This document shows, in pieces, positions 25,606 to 34,182 of a stretch of DNA of 36,088 bases (within the stretch, counting starts at the first letter, position 1; each line of letters begins with the position of its first letter). The position numbers and the translations under genes are program-made. The stretch spans positions 1 to 36,088 of the forward strand of contig MHXM01000159.1 in assembly GCA_001825565.1 (NCBI GenBank), in the 5' to 3' direction. The notes beneath the pieces were generated by a model, which was given only the letters and a program-made list of their open reading frames with translations, was not told the DNA's origin and ran no database searches. The stretch comes from Desulfuromonadaceae bacterium GWC2_58_13 (GTDB lineage: Bacteria > Desulfobacterota > Desulfuromonadia > Desulfuromonadales > Trichloromonadaceae).

Positions 25606-26883
25606 ATGGATACTTTTCTCTATTCCCATGCGGGCCGATTAACCAAGAGCCTGATCCTGGCATTTCTCATCGCCCTGTTGTGCCTGTTCAGCAAAGGGCC
25701 CGATCTGTTGCAGGATGCTATCCCGTTTGCCTTGCTGGCGGGATATCTCCTGATCACCGACCGGCAGTTCACCATCGAGCAGATTCAATCATCCGGGCTG
25801 ATGCTGGCCCATGTCGGTGTCTATCTGCTGCTATGCACCCTGGTGATATGGGCGACCACCGGGGAAGAAGAGAGCGTTTACTGGATCGTTTATTTTCTGC
25901 CGATCGCGGTGGCGGCTTCCAACCTCAATCTGCGCCTGACTTTGCTGACCTGTGCGGCGGCGGTGTTGCTCTTTTTCAGCCAGATTCCCAGCCAGCTTTT
26001 TCTCGATCCGGAATTGCGTGGCGACGAGTTGCCCGAGTTTCTGGTGTTCGGCGTGACCTTTTTTATTGTCGGTCTGCTGGTGCAGAGTTTTTCGGAAATC
26101 CACCGGCGCCAGTTGCAGTCTCAGAGAGAACTCAACGAGCAGTTGTTAACCAACCAGGCGGCGCTGCAAGAATCCCTGGTCCGGCTCGGGGAGGCCGAAG
26201 AAAACCTGCGGCGCAAGGAGCGGCTGGCTTATCTCGGTGAAATGTCGGCGGGGATCGCCCACGAGATCCGCAATCCGTTGGGGATCATCTCGTCATCGGC
26301 CCAGTTGATCGAAAAAAAACTGGCCGATGCGCCGGCTGGCGTCGCGCCGTTGCTCGACATCATCCTGGAGGAATCGACCCGCATCAACGGCCTGGTGACC
26401 GACTTCCTTTCTTTTGGCCGACCCGGGGAGCCAGTGCTGAGACCTTGTGACCCGCAGGCGCTGCTGCGGCGGGCGGCGGAACACATTGGCGCTCTGGCTC
26501 GGCAACAGGAGATCAGGGTCGAGGTCGAGCCCGCCGCCGTATCGCTGGAGGCTTGGGTCGACGCCGACATGATGCAGCAGGTCCTGCTCAATCTGTTGCT
26601 CAATGCCCTGGAGGCGGGCGAACCGGGTGGGCAAATCCGGTTGCGAGCCTATCGGAAGGAACGCCGGGTCTGTCTTGATGTGGAAGACAATGGCTGCGGT
26701 ATTCCGCCAGATCACCAGAAAAAAATATTCGATCCGTTTTTTACCACCCGCGACAAGGGTACCGGGCTGGGCCTGGCCAACGCTCTCCGGATGGTCGAGG
26801 CCCACGGCGGCGATATCCGGTTGCGCAGCGAACCGGGACAGGGTTCGGTCTTCACCGTCTGCCTGCCGGCGGAGGAATGCTAG
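25606..26883 (+). CDS. Membrane sensor histidine kinase (NtrB/PilS-like)
   Basis: N-terminal TM segments; H-box AGIAHEIRNPLG; N-box NLLLNALEAG; DNGCGI; GTGLGLANALRMVEAHGG. Start uncertain (25534, 25549 or 25606). Confidence 0.9.
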   Translation: MDTFLYSHAGRLTKSLILAFLIALLCLFSKGPDLLQDAIPFALLAGYLLITDRQFTIEQIQSSGLMLAHVGVYLLLCTLVIWATTGEEESVYWIVYFLPIAVAASNLNLRLTLLTCAAAVLLFFSQIPSQLFLDPELRGDELPEFLVFGVTFFIVGLLVQSFSEIHRRQLQSQRELNEQLLTNQAALQESLVRLGEAEENLRRKERLAYLGEMSAGIAHEIRNPLGIISSSAQLIEKKLADAPAGVAPLLDIILEESTRINGLVTDFLSFGRPGEPVLRPCDPQALLRRAAEHIGALARQQEIRVEVEPAAVSLEAWVDADMMQQVLLNLLLNALEAGEPGGQIRLRAYRKERRVCLDVEDNGCGIPPDHQKKIFDPFFTTRDKGTGLGLANALRMVEAHGGDIRLRSEPGQGSVFTVCLPAEEC

Positions 26884-28242
26884 ATGGCGCATATTCTGGT
26901 TGTTGACGACGAAAAAAATTACCGGGTGGTGCTGGCCCAACTGCTCGAAGCGGAAGGACACCGGGTTTCAACCGCCGAAAATCCTTTTGCCGCTCTCGAC
27001 CTGCTGTCTCGCGAAAGCGTGACGCTGATTCTCTCCGATCTGAAAATGCCGCGCATGGACGGGCTGGCTTTTCTGCAGCGGGTGCGGCAGGACATCGGCG
27101 AGATCCCGTTTATTGTGCTGACCGCCTTTGCCACCGTCGAGACGGCGCTTTCGGCGATGAAGGCCGGGGCTTTCGATTACCTGATGAAGCCTTTTAAAAA
27201 CGACGAGATTCTGCTGATCGTCGACAAGGCTCTCGGGTATGCCCGTTTGCAGTCAGAAAATACCGCTTTGCGCCGGCAGCTGCACCAGAGCCAGGACCGT
27301 GCGCTGCTCGGCGAAAGTCCGGCCATGAAAAAACTGCTGGCCGATATCGATCAGGTGGCGCCGGCGCGGGCCTCGGTACTGATTACCGGCGAAAGCGGCA
27401 CCGGCAAGGAACTGGTGGCCCGGACCCTGCACCTGGCCAGTCCCCGCCGGCAAGGACCGATGGTTTCCATCAACTGCGCGACCCTGACCGGAAGTCTGCT
27501 GGAGAGCGAGTTGTTCGGCCATGAACGGGGGGCGTTCACCGGGGCCGTGGAACGCAAGCGCGGGCTGCTTGAGGTAGCCGACGGCGGGACGCTGTTTCTC
27601 GACGAGATCGGCGAATTTCCCCTGGCGCTGCAGCCCAGGTTACTGCGAGTGCTGCAGGAACGGCGGTTCCGCCGGGTTGGCGGGACGGCGGAAATTGAAA
27701 CGGATGTTCGTATCGTCGCCGCCACCAATCGCGATCTTTCGCGGATGATCGCGGAAGGGAGCTTTCGCGAGGATCTTTTCTACCGGCTCAACGTCGTGAC
27801 TCTCGAAACGCCGTCCCTGCGCGAGCGCCCCGAGGACATCCCCTTGCTGGCGCTCAGTTTTTTACAACGATTCAGTCTCGAACTGGGACGACGGGTCTCA
27901 TCCGTGGCCCCGGCGGCGATCAACCTCATGCAGGCCTATTCATGGCCGGGCAACGTCAGAGAATTGCAGAACATTCTGGAGCGGGGCGTGCTGTTCTGCC
28001 AAGGCGATACCCTGCGGCCGGAACACCTTCCCGAGTCGTTTCATCGCCAGGGCCATCCCGCCGTGGTCGCGACCGGCCTCGAAATCGACCGCCCACTGCC
28101 GGAACTGCTCGACCGCATCGAGGCCGACCTGATCCATCGGGCACTGGTTCAGGCTCGCGGGGTGCAGGCTCAGGCCGCCGAAATACTTGGCATCAGTCGA
28201 AGCAATCTGCAATACAAGCTCAAGAAGTACCATCTGGGCTGA
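26884..28242 (+). CDS. Sigma-54-dependent response regulator (NtrC family)
   Basis: Receiver domain; GESGTGKE, GAFTGA (HERGAFTGAV), DEIGEF; C-terminal Fis-like HTH (AAEILGISRSNLQYKLKKYHL). Confidence 0.95.
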   Translation: MAHILVVDDEKNYRVVLAQLLEAEGHRVSTAENPFAALDLLSRESVTLILSDLKMPRMDGLAFLQRVRQDIGEIPFIVLTAFATVETALSAMKAGAFDYLMKPFKNDEILLIVDKALGYARLQSENTALRRQLHQSQDRALLGESPAMKKLLADIDQVAPARASVLITGESGTGKELVARTLHLASPRRQGPMVSINCATLTGSLLESELFGHERGAFTGAVERKRGLLEVADGGTLFLDEIGEFPLALQPRLLRVLQERRFRRVGGTAEIETDVRIVAATNRDLSRMIAEGSFREDLFYRLNVVTLETPSLRERPEDIPLLALSFLQRFSLELGRRVSSVAPAAINLMQAYSWPGNVRELQNILERGVLFCQGDTLRPEHLPESFHRQGHPAVVATGLEIDRPLPELLDRIEADLIHRALVQARGVQAQAAEILGISRSNLQYKLKKYHLG

Positions 28243-28254
28243 AATTATTAAGTC

Positions 28255-28321
28255 GGGCGTACAAATTTTGGGCACCTTTTCTTCTTTCTCAGCCACCAGG
28301 TACAAGAATTTGTACGTGCCC
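28255..28321. promoter_or_regulatory. Inverted repeat, candidate upstream activating sequence for the sigma-54 regulator
   Basis: gggcGTACAAATT (28255-28267) pairs with AATTTGTACgtgccc (28307-28321). Confidence 0.55.
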
Positions 28322-28369
28322 GCCGTTTCCTTGGGTGCGATTGCATCTGAAAACAGTCACTTGTGTTTC

Positions 28370-28385
28370 TGGCAAGGTCGTTGCA
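28370..28385 (+). promoter_or_regulatory. Candidate sigma-54 (-24/-12) promoter
   Basis: TGGCAAGGTCGTTGCA matches TGGCACG-N4-TTGCW except one position; GG-N10-GC spacing exact (GG 28371-28372, GC 28383-28384). Confidence 0.65.
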
Positions 28386-28394
28386 AGAAATAGT

Positions 28395-28465
28395 AAGCCG
28401 TAAGAGCCGACAACGCTCTCACATTTGCCTCTGGGGCCTTTTCCGTTAAAGGCCCCAATTTTTTT
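28395..28465 (+). ncRNA. Candidate sigma-54-dependent small RNA or attenuated leader
   Basis: Predicted +1 about 28395; hairpin AGAGC-cgacaac-GCTCT; ends with stem GGGGCCTTT/AAAGGCCCC and T7. Confidence 0.45.
28433..28465 (+). terminator. Strong Rho-independent terminator
   Basis: GGGGCCTTT-tccgtt-AAAGGCCCC-aa-TTTTTTT. Confidence 0.85.
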
Positions 28466-28558
28466 GCCGGGCAATCCGGGGGGATTAACGCCCTTTATTA
28501 AAAATGTGGATCCGTCTTGACTTGGCGGCGGATTTTTGAACTCTGGAAAGGTGCGTGG

Positions 28559-30649
28559 ATGAAAATCATGTTGCATGGAATCCGCCAGTTTTTTCCGCCC
28601 GAAGCCCGTTTTGTGGCCGGCGTCTATGTTTTGCTGCTGGGAGTTTTTTCGGCCCTGCGACTGCTGCTGTTGGTCCGCAACGTCAATTTCGCCCACCAGG
28701 TGGATACCGGGGTCCTGCTGCGGAGTTTTCTGGTCGGTCTGCGTTTTGACCTGGCGGTCAGCTCGTATCTGCTGATTCCTTTGTTGCTGTTGCTGTTGCT
28801 GCCGCCGCGTTTCCGTTCCGCCGTGCTCGGCGGATTCGTCCTGCTGGCCGGCGGCCTGTTTTTTCTCGGGGTGGCCGAAGCCGAGTTTTATGGCGAGTTT
28901 GAGAGCCGGTTCAATTCCCTTGTCTACGAATACGTGGGGCACCCGAAAATCGTGGCCGGAATGATCTGGGACGGATATCCCGTGGTCCGCTACGCCCTGA
29001 TCTGGTTGGTGCTGGCCCTGGTGTTTCTGGCCGGGTTGCGCTGGTTGTACCGGCGCTGCCTTGCCGACGTTCAGGTTGTCACGACCACCCGGGGATCGCT
29101 GCTCAGGGTAATGGGGACGACCGTCGCCCTGGCCCTGATGATATTCGCTTCCCGCGGCGGAGTCGGGCATGAACCGCTACGCTGGGGGGACGCCTTTTTT
29201 TCCGAGTCGACCTTTGCCAACCACCTGGCGCTGAACGGCCTCTACACCCTCGGCCGCAGCGGTTGGGACAAAATCTACAGCAAGCAGGACTTCTGGACCA
29301 AATCGATGACGCCCGAGGCGGCCCTGGCCGCCAGTCGCGACATGTTGACACTGGTCGGTGAAACCGCTCAGGATGATCCCCGATATCCGCTCCTGCGCAG
29401 GGAAAGTTCGATGTCGCCGCTGCTTAAGCGGCAACCCGACCGACCGGCGAACGTGGTGGTTATCCTCATGGAGAGCTTTTCCGCCCGTTTTGTCGGCGCC
29501 CTTGGCGCTCCTGCGGAGCTGACTCCCGAGTTCGACCGACTGGCGGAGCGGGGAATCCTGTTCGAACGGGCCTTTTCCAACGGGACTCACACCCATCAGG
29601 GGGTGTACGCGACCCTGACGTCCTTTCCCAATTTGCCCGGTTACGAATACCTGATGAAGATGATGGAGGCCAACCAGGAATTTTCCGGGTTGCCGACCCT
29701 GCTGCGCCGGCATGATTACCAGTCGCTGTTTTTGTACAACGGATTGTTTTCCTGGGACAATAAGGAAGGATTTTTCCGCCGGCACGGCATGGACCGCTTT
29801 ATCGGCACCAACGATTATGTCGATCCCACTTTTGTCGACCCGGTTTGGGGGGTCTCCGACGTCGATGTTTTCTCCCGGGCCAACCAGGAATTTCGCGAGA
29901 TGGCCAAGAGCGGTCCGTTTTTCTCCAGTATTCTAACCCTCTCCAATCATGCTCCGTTCAACCTTCCCGAACCGCTGCCCTTCGAGCGGATTCGCACCGG
30001 CGATGTCTCCGAGGGCCGCTTTAACGGCATTCGCTACGCCGACTGGGCGTTGGGAGAATTCTTCCGTCTGGCACGGCAGGAAGACTATTTCAGAAACACC
30101 CTGTTCGTTATTACCGGCGATCATGGTTTCGGCACGCCGCCGATGATTACTCCGATGATGCTCTCCCGTTTTCATGTGCCGCTGCTCTTTTACGCGCCGG
30201 GTCTGCTGGGCGACCACGCCGAGCGGCGGCGGACGGTGGCCAGCCAGGTCGATATCGGGCCGAGCGTTCTCGGCCTGCTCGGCATGGACGACCCCCACCA
30301 GGGATGGGGGCGCAACCTCTTTTCGGCAACCTTGAAGGATGAAGGTTTTGCCGTGATCAAGCCATCCGGCGGCGAGGAACAGGTGGCCCTGATCGAGGGG
30401 GATCGGTTGCTGATGATCGCGCCCAAGGAAAAGCCCCAATTGTACCGCTACGATCTGGGGTTTCCCCCGGCCTGTTCCGAAAATCTTGCCCGAAAAGAAA
30501 AAGAGCTTGTCGGGCAGATGGAAAATCGTTTGCTGGCCTACGTCGAGACGGGTATCCTTGCTCTGCGGGGCCGTCGTCTTGGAATCCCCGAAGCCGATGC
30601 GGCGCAGGTCGGGCAGCCGGGCGGCAATGCCCTGGTTGATAATCAATAA
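28559..30649 (+). CDS. LTA synthase-like sulfatase-fold membrane transferase
   Basis: Several N-terminal TM segments, then NVVVILMESFSARFVGALG...FSNGTHTHQGVYATLTSFPNLPG...VITGDHGFG typical of LtaS/MdoB/sulfatase family. Confidence 0.85.
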   Translation: MKIMLHGIRQFFPPEARFVAGVYVLLLGVFSALRLLLLVRNVNFAHQVDTGVLLRSFLVGLRFDLAVSSYLLIPLLLLLLLPPRFRSAVLGGFVLLAGGLFFLGVAEAEFYGEFESRFNSLVYEYVGHPKIVAGMIWDGYPVVRYALIWLVLALVFLAGLRWLYRRCLADVQVVTTTRGSLLRVMGTTVALALMIFASRGGVGHEPLRWGDAFFSESTFANHLALNGLYTLGRSGWDKIYSKQDFWTKSMTPEAALAASRDMLTLVGETAQDDPRYPLLRRESSMSPLLKRQPDRPANVVVILMESFSARFVGALGAPAELTPEFDRLAERGILFERAFSNGTHTHQGVYATLTSFPNLPGYEYLMKMMEANQEFSGLPTLLRRHDYQSLFLYNGLFSWDNKEGFFRRHGMDRFIGTNDYVDPTFVDPVWGVSDVDVFSRANQEFREMAKSGPFFSSILTLSNHAPFNLPEPLPFERIRTGDVSEGRFNGIRYADWALGEFFRLARQEDYFRNTLFVITGDHGFGTPPMITPMMLSRFHVPLLFYAPGLLGDHAERRRTVASQVDIGPSVLGLLGMDDPHQGWGRNLFSATLKDEGFAVIKPSGGEEQVALIEGDRLLMIAPKEKPQLYRYDLGFPPACSENLARKEKELVGQMENRLLAYVETGILALRGRRLGIPEADAAQVGQPGGNALVDNQ

Positions 30650-30661
30650 AAAGGGTACGCC

Positions 30662-31552
30662 ATGGAAGCGGAATACCGTCCTCGTCATATCAAGCTGATT
30701 GCCAACCCGGTTGCCGGCGGCGATGCCACCGCAAAAATTCGCCAGGCCGAATTCTGCCTGGCGAAGCAGGGAGCCCGGGTCGAACTCTTTCTGACCGCCG
30801 CCCGTGGCGATGCCGCCCGGGCGGCGGCTGAAGCGAAATCCGCGGGGTTCGACCTGATCGTCGCCGCCGGTGGCGACGGCACCCTCAACGAGGTCATCAA
30901 CGGACTGGCGCCGTCATCCATTCCCCTGGCCTTTGTCCCCCTGGGGACGACCAACGTTTTTGCCCTTGAGGCGGGCATCCCCTTCGACATCGCCGGGGCC
31001 TGCCGGATTGCCCTGGGCGGCGTGCCGACCCCGATCTGTCTTGGGGCGGCCGGCGATACCCGGTTTCTGCTCATGGCCGGCGCCGGATTCGATGCCGAGG
31101 TGGTGTTCCGGGTCGATCTGCGGCTCAAGCGGCGTCTCGGCAAGCTGGCCTACCTGGTCAGCGCCGTAAAGGTTTTTTTCGAACATTCTCCACGTCCCCT
31201 TGAAGTTCTTCTCGAAGACGGTTCCCGGCGTTCTGGCTACGGTCTGATCGTCGGCAATGGACGGCTTTACGGCGGGCGCTTTTCCCTCACCCCCGGAGCC
31301 GCGCTGCCCGAGGACCAGTTCGAGGTCTGCCTGTTGCAGCGACCCGGGCGTCTGGAACTGCTTCACTGTCTGCTGCGCATGCTGCTGAAACGGCCGCTGA
31401 TTCCGGCCGGGGCGTTGTTGTTCAAGGCCCGGGAGCTGACGGTGCAAGGTGACGGAGTGCCGGTGCAGATCGATGGCGACCCTCACGGCCAGCTGCCGAT
31501 GCGTTTTCGGGCAATGCCCGGCGAGTTGGTGATGGTCATGCCCGCCGCCTGA
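30662..31552 (+). CDS. Diacylglycerol kinase family lipid kinase (DgkB/YegS-like)
   Basis: IKLIANPVAGG...IVAAGGDGTLNEVINGL...PLGTTNVFA. Confidence 0.9.
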   Translation: MEAEYRPRHIKLIANPVAGGDATAKIRQAEFCLAKQGARVELFLTAARGDAARAAAEAKSAGFDLIVAAGGDGTLNEVINGLAPSSIPLAFVPLGTTNVFALEAGIPFDIAGACRIALGGVPTPICLGAAGDTRFLLMAGAGFDAEVVFRVDLRLKRRLGKLAYLVSAVKVFFEHSPRPLEVLLEDGSRRSGYGLIVGNGRLYGGRFSLTPGAALPEDQFEVCLLQRPGRLELLHCLLRMLLKRPLIPAGALLFKARELTVQGDGVPVQIDGDPHGQLPMRFRAMPGELVMVMPAA

Positions 31553-31621
31553 TTGCCAAAGCGGGCGTGAACGGTGGCACTCGTTTTTACAGGATTTTAG
31601 CATTCGGCTCATTTTCCTTGA

Positions 31622-33175
31622 ATGGGCCAGACCGATATTGGTCGAATGGATATCGTGAGACCTGATGTGTTGAAGATTGAAGAGATGGGTCCGGTTACCG
31701 ACAGCAAGGCCCAAAATCACAAGGTTTTGGGCTTGATCGTTGTGGCTTCGGCCCTGTTGCTGTTTTTCTGGGGCATCTGGTCGATCCCTTTACTTTCCCA
31801 TAACGAGGCTCGGCGACTGGTTGTGGTCCGCGAGATGCTGGCCAACCACCAGTGGTTGACCCCGATGAAAAACGGATTGTTATACTTCGAAAAACCCCCC
31901 CTTTTTTACTGGGTCGGGAATTTTTTCAGTCTACTGTCCGGCAGCACCGCCGAGTGGGTATTGCGACTCCCCTCGGCACTGGCGGCGCTTTTCACGACCG
32001 GGTTTCTGTATCAGCGCGTCAGCAGCTATATCGGTCGTCAGCAGGCATTATTCAGCGTCCTGATCCTGATCAGCTCCCATTTTTACGTGATGAACGCCCG
32101 CCGGGCTGAAATCAATGTGTTTTTCGGGATGCTCTGCTTTTCGGCGTTGTTGCTGTATTTCGATTATCTGCAACGGGAGAAGCAGAGATATCTGTTCCTT
32201 TCGTTTACGGTCCTGGGCCTTGCGGCCCTGGCCAAGGGCCCGGTTGCCCTGGTTTTTTTTCTGCCGCCGCTTTTGATCTACGGCATTCTGCAACGGGATT
32301 GGAAGGTGTTCAGGGGGCTGGTCCATCCGCTGGGATGGTCGCTGTTTGCCTTGGTAGGAGGCTCCTGGTTTGTTTATGCTCTGTATGGCGTTCCCGACAG
32401 TCCGCTGCATGCGGTTATTCAAAAAGATATCGTGGTCAATGCGTATGAAGACGCCACGCCGGATCCGTTTTACGCCTACATCGTGTATCTGTTGGGAGCC
32501 TTTGCCCCCTGGATTCTGATCCTTTTTTACCAGCCGAAGCGTTGGCTGAAAAGGCTGTCCTCGGCCAGAGAGCGGTTTATGCTCTGTGCTTTCGGCGTGC
32601 CGTTCATCGTCATGTCCTGTTTTGCCGCCAAGCATGGCAAATACATGCTTCCCGTCTACCCGTTTCTGGCCATCGTTCTGGGCTGTGTGGTCAGCGATGT
32701 TTATGACGATTTCGGGCAACGTTGGGGGAAATCTTTTCATACCTTCTTCATCCGGCTGGCCGGGGGGCTGCTGGCGATCCTGTTCGCGGTTCTGGTTCTG
32801 GCGCCTCCCCATACCCAGAAACACCGGTTTGAAGCGCTTAAGCCTTTTGCCGAAAAAATCCGCTCTTTGCAGGGAACCGACCCGGTTTTTTCCTATCGCC
32901 GTGAACAGATTCAGCTGATTTATTATTTCGGAAGTCCGATACCGGTTCTCGATAACGGCCAGTTCAAGCGAAAACTTGAACTGGGACAATCGTTTCTTCT
33001 GGTTGCCGAGGAAGCTGACCGGTCCGCGGTGGAAGGCAGGGGGTTGTGTCTGCTTGAGGAGTTTGCTCCCTATTTGAAAAAGAAGCGCAAGGGGTTGCTC
33101 TATGGAACCTCGAATTATTGTCAAATCTCGAAAGGAAAAGATCCTGGGATGCGACGGGTCGCAGCCCTGCAATGA
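31622..33175 (+). CDS. Glycosyltransferase family 39 / ArnT-like membrane protein
   Basis: IPLLSHNEARRLVVVREMLANHQWLTPMKNGLLYFEKPPLFYWV is an ArnT/PMT-like N-terminal motif; multi-TM. Start uncertain. Confidence 0.87.
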   Translation: MGQTDIGRMDIVRPDVLKIEEMGPVTDSKAQNHKVLGLIVVASALLLFFWGIWSIPLLSHNEARRLVVVREMLANHQWLTPMKNGLLYFEKPPLFYWVGNFFSLLSGSTAEWVLRLPSALAALFTTGFLYQRVSSYIGRQQALFSVLILISSHFYVMNARRAEINVFFGMLCFSALLLYFDYLQREKQRYLFLSFTVLGLAALAKGPVALVFFLPPLLIYGILQRDWKVFRGLVHPLGWSLFALVGGSWFVYALYGVPDSPLHAVIQKDIVVNAYEDATPDPFYAYIVYLLGAFAPWILILFYQPKRWLKRLSSARERFMLCAFGVPFIVMSCFAAKHGKYMLPVYPFLAIVLGCVVSDVYDDFGQRWGKSFHTFFIRLAGGLLAILFAVLVLAPPHTQKHRFEALKPFAEKIRSLQGTDPVFSYRREQIQLIYYFGSPIPVLDNGQFKRKLELGQSFLLVAEEADRSAVEGRGLCLLEEFAPYLKKKRKGLLYGTSNYCQISKGKDPGMRRVAALQ

Positions 33176-33191
33176 AAAGGCGGGCGAGAAA

Positions 33192-33905
33192 ATGAAACTG
33201 ATATCCGTGATTGTCCCGGTTTACAACGAGGCTGAAAACCTCGGACAACTGGTGGCCGAACTGCAATCCTCGTTGTCGCCGCTGATATGCCCCCATGAGA
33301 TTCTTTTTGTCGATGATGGCAGCACCGACGAAAGTCTTGCCATCATTCGGGCTCTGGCGGCTGAGCATTCCCAAATCCAATGCATCGCTTTCGAGAAGAA
33401 CACCGGGCAATCGGCGGCGCTTTACGCCGGTTTCCAGCAGGCTCGCGGAGATGTCGTCATCACCCTGGATGCCGATCTGCAGAACGATCCGGCCGATATT
33501 CCGGTCATGCTCAGGTATTATGGGGATTACGACATGATCACCGGGTGGCGGAAAAATCGCCGGGATCCCCTGTCGAAGAAAATCGCCAGTAAGGTGGGGA
33601 ACTCGTTTCGTAACTGGATGACCCGGGAAACGATACACGATACCGGCTGTTCCCTTAAAATCATGCGGGCCGATATGCTGAAAAAGATAAAAATGTTTCG
33701 GGGCCTGCATCGGTTTCTGCCCACTTTGATGCGGCTCGAAGGGGCAAGGGTGATTGAGGTTCCGGTGAACCATCGACCGCGTTTGCACGGGGTATCCAAG
33801 TACACCAATTGGCGGCGTGGCATCGAGGGGTTTCAGGATGTTCTGGCGGTCCAATGGATGCAAAAAAGAAACCTGCGGATCAAGATAAGGGAAAGTCATG
33901 AATAA
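33192..33905 (+). CDS. Glycosyltransferase family 2 (polyprenyl-phosphate sugar transferase, ArnC/DPM-like)
   Basis: ISVIVPVYNEAENLGQLVAEL...FVDDGSTDES...DADLQNDPADIP. Confidence 0.92.
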   Translation: MKLISVIVPVYNEAENLGQLVAELQSSLSPLICPHEILFVDDGSTDESLAIIRALAAEHSQIQCIAFEKNTGQSAALYAGFQQARGDVVITLDADLQNDPADIPVMLRYYGDYDMITGWRKNRRDPLSKKIASKVGNSFRNWMTRETIHDTGCSLKIMRADMLKKIKMFRGLHRFLPTLMRLEGARVIEVPVNHRPRLHGVSKYTNWRRGIEGFQDVLAVQWMQKRNLRIKIRESHE

Positions 33906-34182
33906 TACGGAAATTTCTATCCTCGTGCTCGGGTTTGCCGGCCAGGCCCTCTTTTTCATGCGGTTTTTTGTTCAGTGGTTGCAGTCGGAAAAACACCAGA
34001 AAAGCGTGATTCCGGTCTCGTTCTGGTATTTCAGCCTGGCGGGAAGCTCTCTGCTGATGGTTTACGCGATCCTCCGCCATGACATCGTTTTCATTGTCGG
34101 TCAATCCACCGGTTTTTACATCTATCTCCGAAATCTATATTTCATTCACCGGGAAAAAAAAGAGGCGCCTGAGCCGGCCTGA
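33898..34182 (+). CDS. Lipid-A-disaccharide synthase N-terminal domain (LAB_N)-like small membrane protein
   Basis: 94 aa: GFAGQALFFMRFFVQWLQSEKHQKSVIPVSFWYFSLAGSSLLMVYAI...GQSTGFYIYLRNLYFI. Confidence 0.85.
   Translation: MNNTEISILVLGFAGQALFFMRFFVQWLQSEKHQKSVIPVSFWYFSLAGSSLLMVYAILRHDIVFIVGQSTGFYIYLRNLYFIHREKKEAPEPA

Follow-up and report, generated by a model that had tools for sequence, protein, structure and literature searches.

Here we propose that a short interval between a two-component system and an LtaS-like envelope operon in Desulfuromonadaceae bacterium GWC2_58_13 probably encodes a sigma-54-dependent, base-pairing sRNA under the control of the adjacent regulator. The proposal draws on comparison of promoter, enhancer, RNA and terminator elements, as read in one 36,088-nt stretch of DNA (the window) and in related genomes. 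On balance, and with more reserve, we also lean towards a broader reading, in which the RNA represents an unnamed, phylum-wide family of sigma-54 sRNAs that carries an anti-Shine-Dalgarno seed and goes with a single orthologous regulator and its GTACAA-N4-TTGTAC enhancer. Within the lineage of the window, the sRNA would occupy a promoter that elsewhere drives the LtaS-like operon, so that one output of the regulator would have changed between activating that operon directly and acting through an RNA.

Genomic context and predicted elements

The two-component system comprises a sensor histidine kinase (25606 to 26883, forward strand) with a multi-TM N-terminus and Pfam HisKA and HATPase_c domains, followed by an NtrC-family sigma-54-activating response regulator (26884 to 28242, forward strand) with a receiver, AAA+ and Fis-type HTH architecture (Pfam Response_reg, Sigma54_activat and HTH_8); the regulator scores near AtoC/NtrC models, yet under every NCBIfam cut-off shown. 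Kinase orthologues of 50-56% identity adjoin the response regulator in genomes G023 and G042. Past the interval of interest, and after its terminator as the first-pass annotation had placed it, the ATG of an LtaS-like phosphoglycerol-transferase/sulfatase-family membrane protein (28559 to 30649, forward strand; Pfam Sulfatase) at 28559 opens an envelope operon (28559 to 34182) that also holds a YegS-like/DAGK lipid kinase (30662; Pfam DAGK_cat), an ArnT-like glycosyltransferase (31622; Pfam PMT_2), an ArnC-like GT2 (Pfam Glycos_transf_2) and a LAB_N protein (33898; Pfam LAB_N). RpoN is encoded in all eight genomes checked, including the window's genome and two congeners, and Hfq in these same three. 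In G. sulfurreducens, an rpoN deletion proved unobtainable (PMC2725144).

The -24/-12 sigma-54 promoter TGGCAAGGTCGTTGCA (28370 to 28385, forward strand) shows the exact GG-N10-GC spacing first described for it. No second exact TGGCAN6TTGCA occurs in the 36-kb window, for which base composition predicts 0.056 chance matches. Upstream of its -24 element by 70 nt lies the proposed enhancer (UAS), the perfect palindrome GTACAAGAATTTGTAC (28300 to 28315, forward strand; GTACAA-N4-TTGTAC), which has 0 of 12 mismatches, a quality reached by none of 200 shuffles; the window's own assembly contains a single exact copy of GTACAA-N4-TTGTAC, as would suit a single-locus regulon. An enhancer half-site, GTACAAATTTTGGGCA (28259 to 28274, forward strand), is found further upstream, with GTACAAATTTT kept in two congeners and present in G023. 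Both the palindrome and the half-site had been overlooked in the first-pass annotation.

Judging from the spacing to the -12 element, the predicted RNA would start near 28395 and, judging from the T7 tract, end at 28465 (forward strand), for a length of ~70 nt, in line with the ~71 nt proposed initially. It contains no ATG or GTG. Its small 5' hairpin (28400 to 28422, forward strand), part of the original proposal and now located, has an AGAGC/GCUCU core that is retained in both congeners, and among these congeners it shows no compensatory change, i.e., it is without covariation support. Next comes a mostly unpaired 12-nt linker, CACATTTGCCTC (28420 to 28431, forward strand), which we propose as the seed and which is identical at 12 of 12 positions across three congeneric genomes. 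The intrinsic terminator (28432 to 28465, forward strand) consists of a stem-loop at 28432-28457, with 10 pairs (six of them G-C) and a loop of 6 nt, and the T7 tract at 28459-28465; the tract ends where it had been called, while the stem has 10 bp rather than the reported 9, a trivial difference. The terminator is conserved, and in congener G002 one C-G pair is replaced by a compensatory U-A pair. The folding energy predicted for the entire RNA is -25.5 kcal/mol, whereas shuffled sequences give -14.4 +/- 3.0 (z = -3.7). An antisense ORF across the RNA was considered and dropped, its reading frames being short and not conserved.

Conservation within the order

A search of 58 genomes returned matches in two congeners only (G001 and G002), where the RNA again lies between the regulator and LtaS. 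The alignment of these loci resolves into islands, namely GTACAAATTTT, AATTTGTACGTGC, TGGCA-N6-TTGC, TAAGAGCC...ACGCTC, CACATTTGCCTC and the terminator. The enhancer and promoter are thereby retained jointly with the RNA's hairpin, linker and terminator, while the flanks, including the gap before LtaS, have diverged. This is the opposite of the pattern that the first-pass annotation had named as speaking against an sRNA, in which close relatives lose the -24/-12 motif and keep only the terminator. Another alternative is an ordinary terminator for the two-component operon accompanied by a fortuitous -24/-12 match. The terminator does sit after the regulator gene, where it would also halt upstream transcription, but an exact promoter is rarely expected by chance in a window of this size (the 0.056 given above), promoter and enhancer are conserved alongside the terminator, and loci throughout the phylum repeat this arrangement; we regard this explanation as very improbable.

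Beyond the genus, G023 represents a different family of the order and has a regulator 73% identical to the window's; it carries GTACAAATTTTCGGCAC, TGGCAAGGGGATTGC, the linker core TTTTGCTTCCGGGG and a terminator ahead of LtaS-like genes, and its enhancer is of the window's type. The promoter is kept as TGGCAN6TTGCW in the congeners and G023, and the pre-terminator motif drifts from CCTCC in the congeners to CCTCT in the window strain and CTTCC in G023. Model R1, built from the window's genome and its two congeners, yielded no further copies in 136 genomes of the order and only weak matches in outside loci. Other sigma-54-promoter RNAs were seen in the window's order (L249:1507-1600, as well as L250 and L243, both on the reverse strand); in RNAs of this type CCUCC sits in the terminator loop, as in CCCCGGTGTTTCTCCTCCTGAACCCGGGG of L249.

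Elsewhere in the order, the same promoter directly precedes a gene: in G042, L037/G131, L038, L044 and L046, an enhancer of this type and a -24/-12 element are followed by the next gene without a terminator, and in G042 and G131 that gene is LtaS-like. The arrangement in these relatives implies that, in this order, the envelope operon also is, or used to be, a direct target of the regulator. Because the promoter drives LtaS directly in several relatives, read-through into the LtaS-like operon is possible in the window as well, and the interval could be an attenuated leader, in which a protein, the ribosome or a ligand would regulate terminator read-through and thereby set expression of the envelope operon, and the terminated by-product may or may not have a function of its own. 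Such a leader would agree with the direct coupling of enhancer and sigma-54 promoter to LtaS in G042 and other Desulfuromonadales, with the position of LtaS-like genes ~100-120 nt after the terminator in the window's genus and G023, and with the finding of no sigma-70-like promoter in the terminator-LtaS gap. However, the predicted folds show no evident anti-terminator pairing, the gap is unconserved, and in most other taxa such an RNA stands alone or in tandem, with no LtaS downstream; we consider a leader unlikely, if far from negligible.

Recurrence across Desulfobacterota

We fetched 80 regulator loci from named genomes and searched both strands of 79 of them for a strong -24/-12 element with a terminator within ~100 nt, requiring no RNA motif. 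Among the 21 promoter-terminator units obtained, all but one lie on the regulator strand and no more than 850 nt downstream of the regulator gene, and such regulator-downstream units occur at 18 of the 79 loci. C/TTCC directly precedes the terminator in every one of these 20 units, typically as CTTTCCTCC, an anti-Shine-Dalgarno sequence. Tandem units are present in L065 and L094, a relaxed scan adds a second unit in L092, and the RNA-bearing loci are spread over several clades of the regulator tree. In fetched loci with a well-formed terminator, and where the contig reached far enough, the unit lies ~200 nt past a regulator that shares 45-48% identity with that of the window. Together with conservation in the congeners, these recurring units support the initial idea of a sigma-54 sRNA beside a two-component system; furthermore, the outside units often have no target gene after them, and this speaks for an sRNA rather than a leader alone.

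Upstream of these promoters, the enhancer recurs as well. The GTACAA-N4-TTGTAC palindrome was defined on the window and then sought up to 260 nt upstream of RNA promoters. Of the 37 regulator-adjacent RNA promoters (window genus included), 29 have it with two mismatches or fewer in 12 positions, compared with an average of 4.3 mismatches for the best match in shuffled sequence, and its positions are mostly -112 to -116 or -67 to -70. Among RNA copies not adjacent to the regulator, 6 of 16 have the palindrome, and the Desulfovibrio-like copies are without it. Of all the results, this recurrent palindrome most strongly supports control of the RNA by the adjacent regulator, which would presumably bind there.

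A pattern of promoter, gap and TTYCTCC was present in 102 of 396 whole Desulfobacterota genomes, against 11 for the reversed control; since the pattern selects for the motif, these counts are evidence of prevalence and not of conservation. Some RNA copies lie away from the regulator; examples occur next to glyA-like genes and in Desulfovibrio-like genomes, with neighbouring genes identified by ORF inspection only. Desulfovibrio-like genomes (L223/L224, L225/L226 and L227/L228) each have two sigma-54 RNA copies with ACTCTTTCCTCCT, neither next to the regulator nor preceded by a GTACAA enhancer. A tandem pair of RNAs downstream of a glyA-like gene (L229:4707-5031) has a perfect GTACAAAAATTTGTAC enhancer and is distant from the regulator, and second sigma-54 RNA-like copies, besides the regulator-adjacent one, were noted at G152:C23:92049-92107 and G144:C342:10264-10314. 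The occurrence of CATATTTGCCTC in L043, which precedes a second regulator gene and is without a terminator, was taken as chance.

The relation of the window RNA to these outside RNAs was also assessed by model. An alignment of 31 outside RNAs (A5) displays a common promoter, a CTTTYCTCC motif and a terminator, and model R2, built from A5 and hence from outside sequences only, gives the window RNA a modest 24.5 bits, much of it from the promoter and T-tract (E of 0.0037 over 127 kb). In the genome-wide search (E of 0.095) it is the sole G000 match at E <= 0.1, and the RNA locus is the only or best R2 match in G000, G001 and G002. The window RNA shares the family layout, lying downstream of a homologous regulator and having a GTACAA-type enhancer and a pre-terminator motif (weaker, CCTCT). 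Architecture and enhancer argue for its membership in the Desulfobacterota CTTTCCTCC family, the sequence score being weak.

Comparison with known sigma-54-dependent sRNAs

CrcZ is a longer RNA that serves as a sponge for Hfq/Crc, and the Qrr RNAs are sigma-54-dependent base-pairing sRNAs, multi-copy in some genomes, with qrr1 adjoining luxO. The RNA described here resembles Qrr (LuxO, Vibrio) in its predicted sigma-54 dependence and base-pairing, in adjoining the regulator gene and in being multi-copy in some genomes, but Rfam Qrr is unmatched and the window regulator reaches 353 bits against the 800-bit LuxO cut-off. With CrcZ/CrcY (CbrAB, Pseudomonas) it would share activation of a sigma-54 sRNA by an NtrC-type regulator; Rfam CrcZ is likewise unmatched, and CbrB sites are non-palindromic (PMC6296734), whereas the window enhancer is palindromic.

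Sigma-54 sRNAs beside two-component systems are established, as for CrcZ with CbrB (PMC6296734) and GlmY with QseEF (PMC6075780, PMC8745638). GlmY (QseE/QseF, equivalent to GlrK/GlrR, in enterobacteria) similarly adjoins a two-component system and has a link to envelope homeostasis, and the analogy to it drawn in the first-pass annotation holds for the arrangement. It does not extend to membership: Rfam GlmY is unmatched, and the window regulator, at 365 bits, is under the 763-bit NCBIfam equivalog cut-off for GlrR/QseF. GlmY also differs in lying upstream of the kinase gene and acting as a decoy for RapZ, while the window RNA lies downstream of the regulator. No relevant Rfam family came up when the window and 21 related loci were searched, whether the thresholds were gathering or relaxed, and an Rfam E-value search of 28230-28570 did not list GlmY.

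Within the same broad group, Desulfovibrio vulgaris has Dv_sRNA2 downstream of DVU0679 plus three further sigma-54 ncRNAs, and an ncRNA downstream of DVU0653 is described (PMC3333781, PMC4641369). There, a sigma-54-dependent regulator has as its mapped target an RNA, of unknown function, just downstream of its own gene, the arrangement proposed for the window; the likeness of Dv_sRNA2 and the DVU0653 ncRNA is one of arrangement, and, unlike in the window, an LtaS-like operon is not mentioned for them. With a conserved promoter and a proposed upstream enhancer both present, the window RNA would fall into the functional class of sigma-54 sRNAs that adjoin their regulator. The kind is already known (GlmY, CrcZ, Qrr, Dv_sRNA2); the RNA family itself appears new, and no description of a phylum-wide RNA family was found in the open-access literature searched or in Rfam.

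Proposed mechanism and targets

We envisage that the histidine kinase phosphorylates the adjacent NtrC-family response regulator, which would then bind the enhancer at 28300-28315 together with the half-site at 28259 and activate sigma-54 RNA polymerase at 28370-28385, giving a transcript that begins near 28395 and ends at the terminator at 28465. The likely seed is the linker, which is unpaired and has CCUC or CCUCC at its end, immediately ahead of the terminator; it would base-pair with target mRNAs at their Shine-Dalgarno region and thereby block translation, possibly assisted by Hfq in the window's genus. The LtaS operon of this genus would probably be reached by partial read-through or be uncoupled from the promoter. 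Base-pairing translational repression is the most likely action because the most conserved segment is both unpaired and complementary to the Shine-Dalgarno sequence; in some taxa the linker approximates the reverse complement of a ribosome-binding site plus start codon (e.g., AGGAGGAAAGCAAATGAAGAAA in L103).

When five outside genomes and the three congeners were searched for long stretches complementary to the linker, only matches with 2-3 mismatches, near the control level, appeared elsewhere, and perfect or near-perfect linker complements were confined to the loci themselves and the second RNA copy in G152. Short complements (GRGGCAAATG; 10-mer matches) pointed to no convincing start-site target, and pairing of the RNA with the LtaS leader and other start regions of the window was no better than for shuffles. 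Four outside genomes that carry the RNA (G138, G142, G477 and G518), some of whose assemblies may be incomplete, yielded no Hfq-family gene, so dependence on Hfq cannot be assumed for the family.

That no mRNA target emerged from these searches would also suit a real RNA that acts otherwise than by base-pairing at ribosome-binding sites, for instance as a decoy for a protein, in the manner of GlmY or CrcZ, or as an sRNA sponge. There is precedent in the sequestration of Crc by CrcZ (PMC6296734) and in GlmY, an established decoy (PMC7073468). Nonetheless, the most conserved stretch is unpaired, C-rich, anti-Shine-Dalgarno-like and common across the phylum, as is typical of seeds, and repeated protein-binding motifs (GGA, CA-rich repeats) were not seen; we judge a decoy or sponge to be quite unlikely.

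Implications

Few sRNAs have been functionally characterised in sulfate- and metal-reducing Desulfobacterota. An RNA family whose promoter, enhancer, regulator and seed can all be recognised, and of which some genomes carry several copies, would offer a direct handle on post-transcriptional control in this group. The base-pairing sRNA proposed here would furthermore connect a two-component system with envelope genes of the LtaS/lipid A type, and would provide a comparative case in which one promoter yields either an mRNA or an sRNA.
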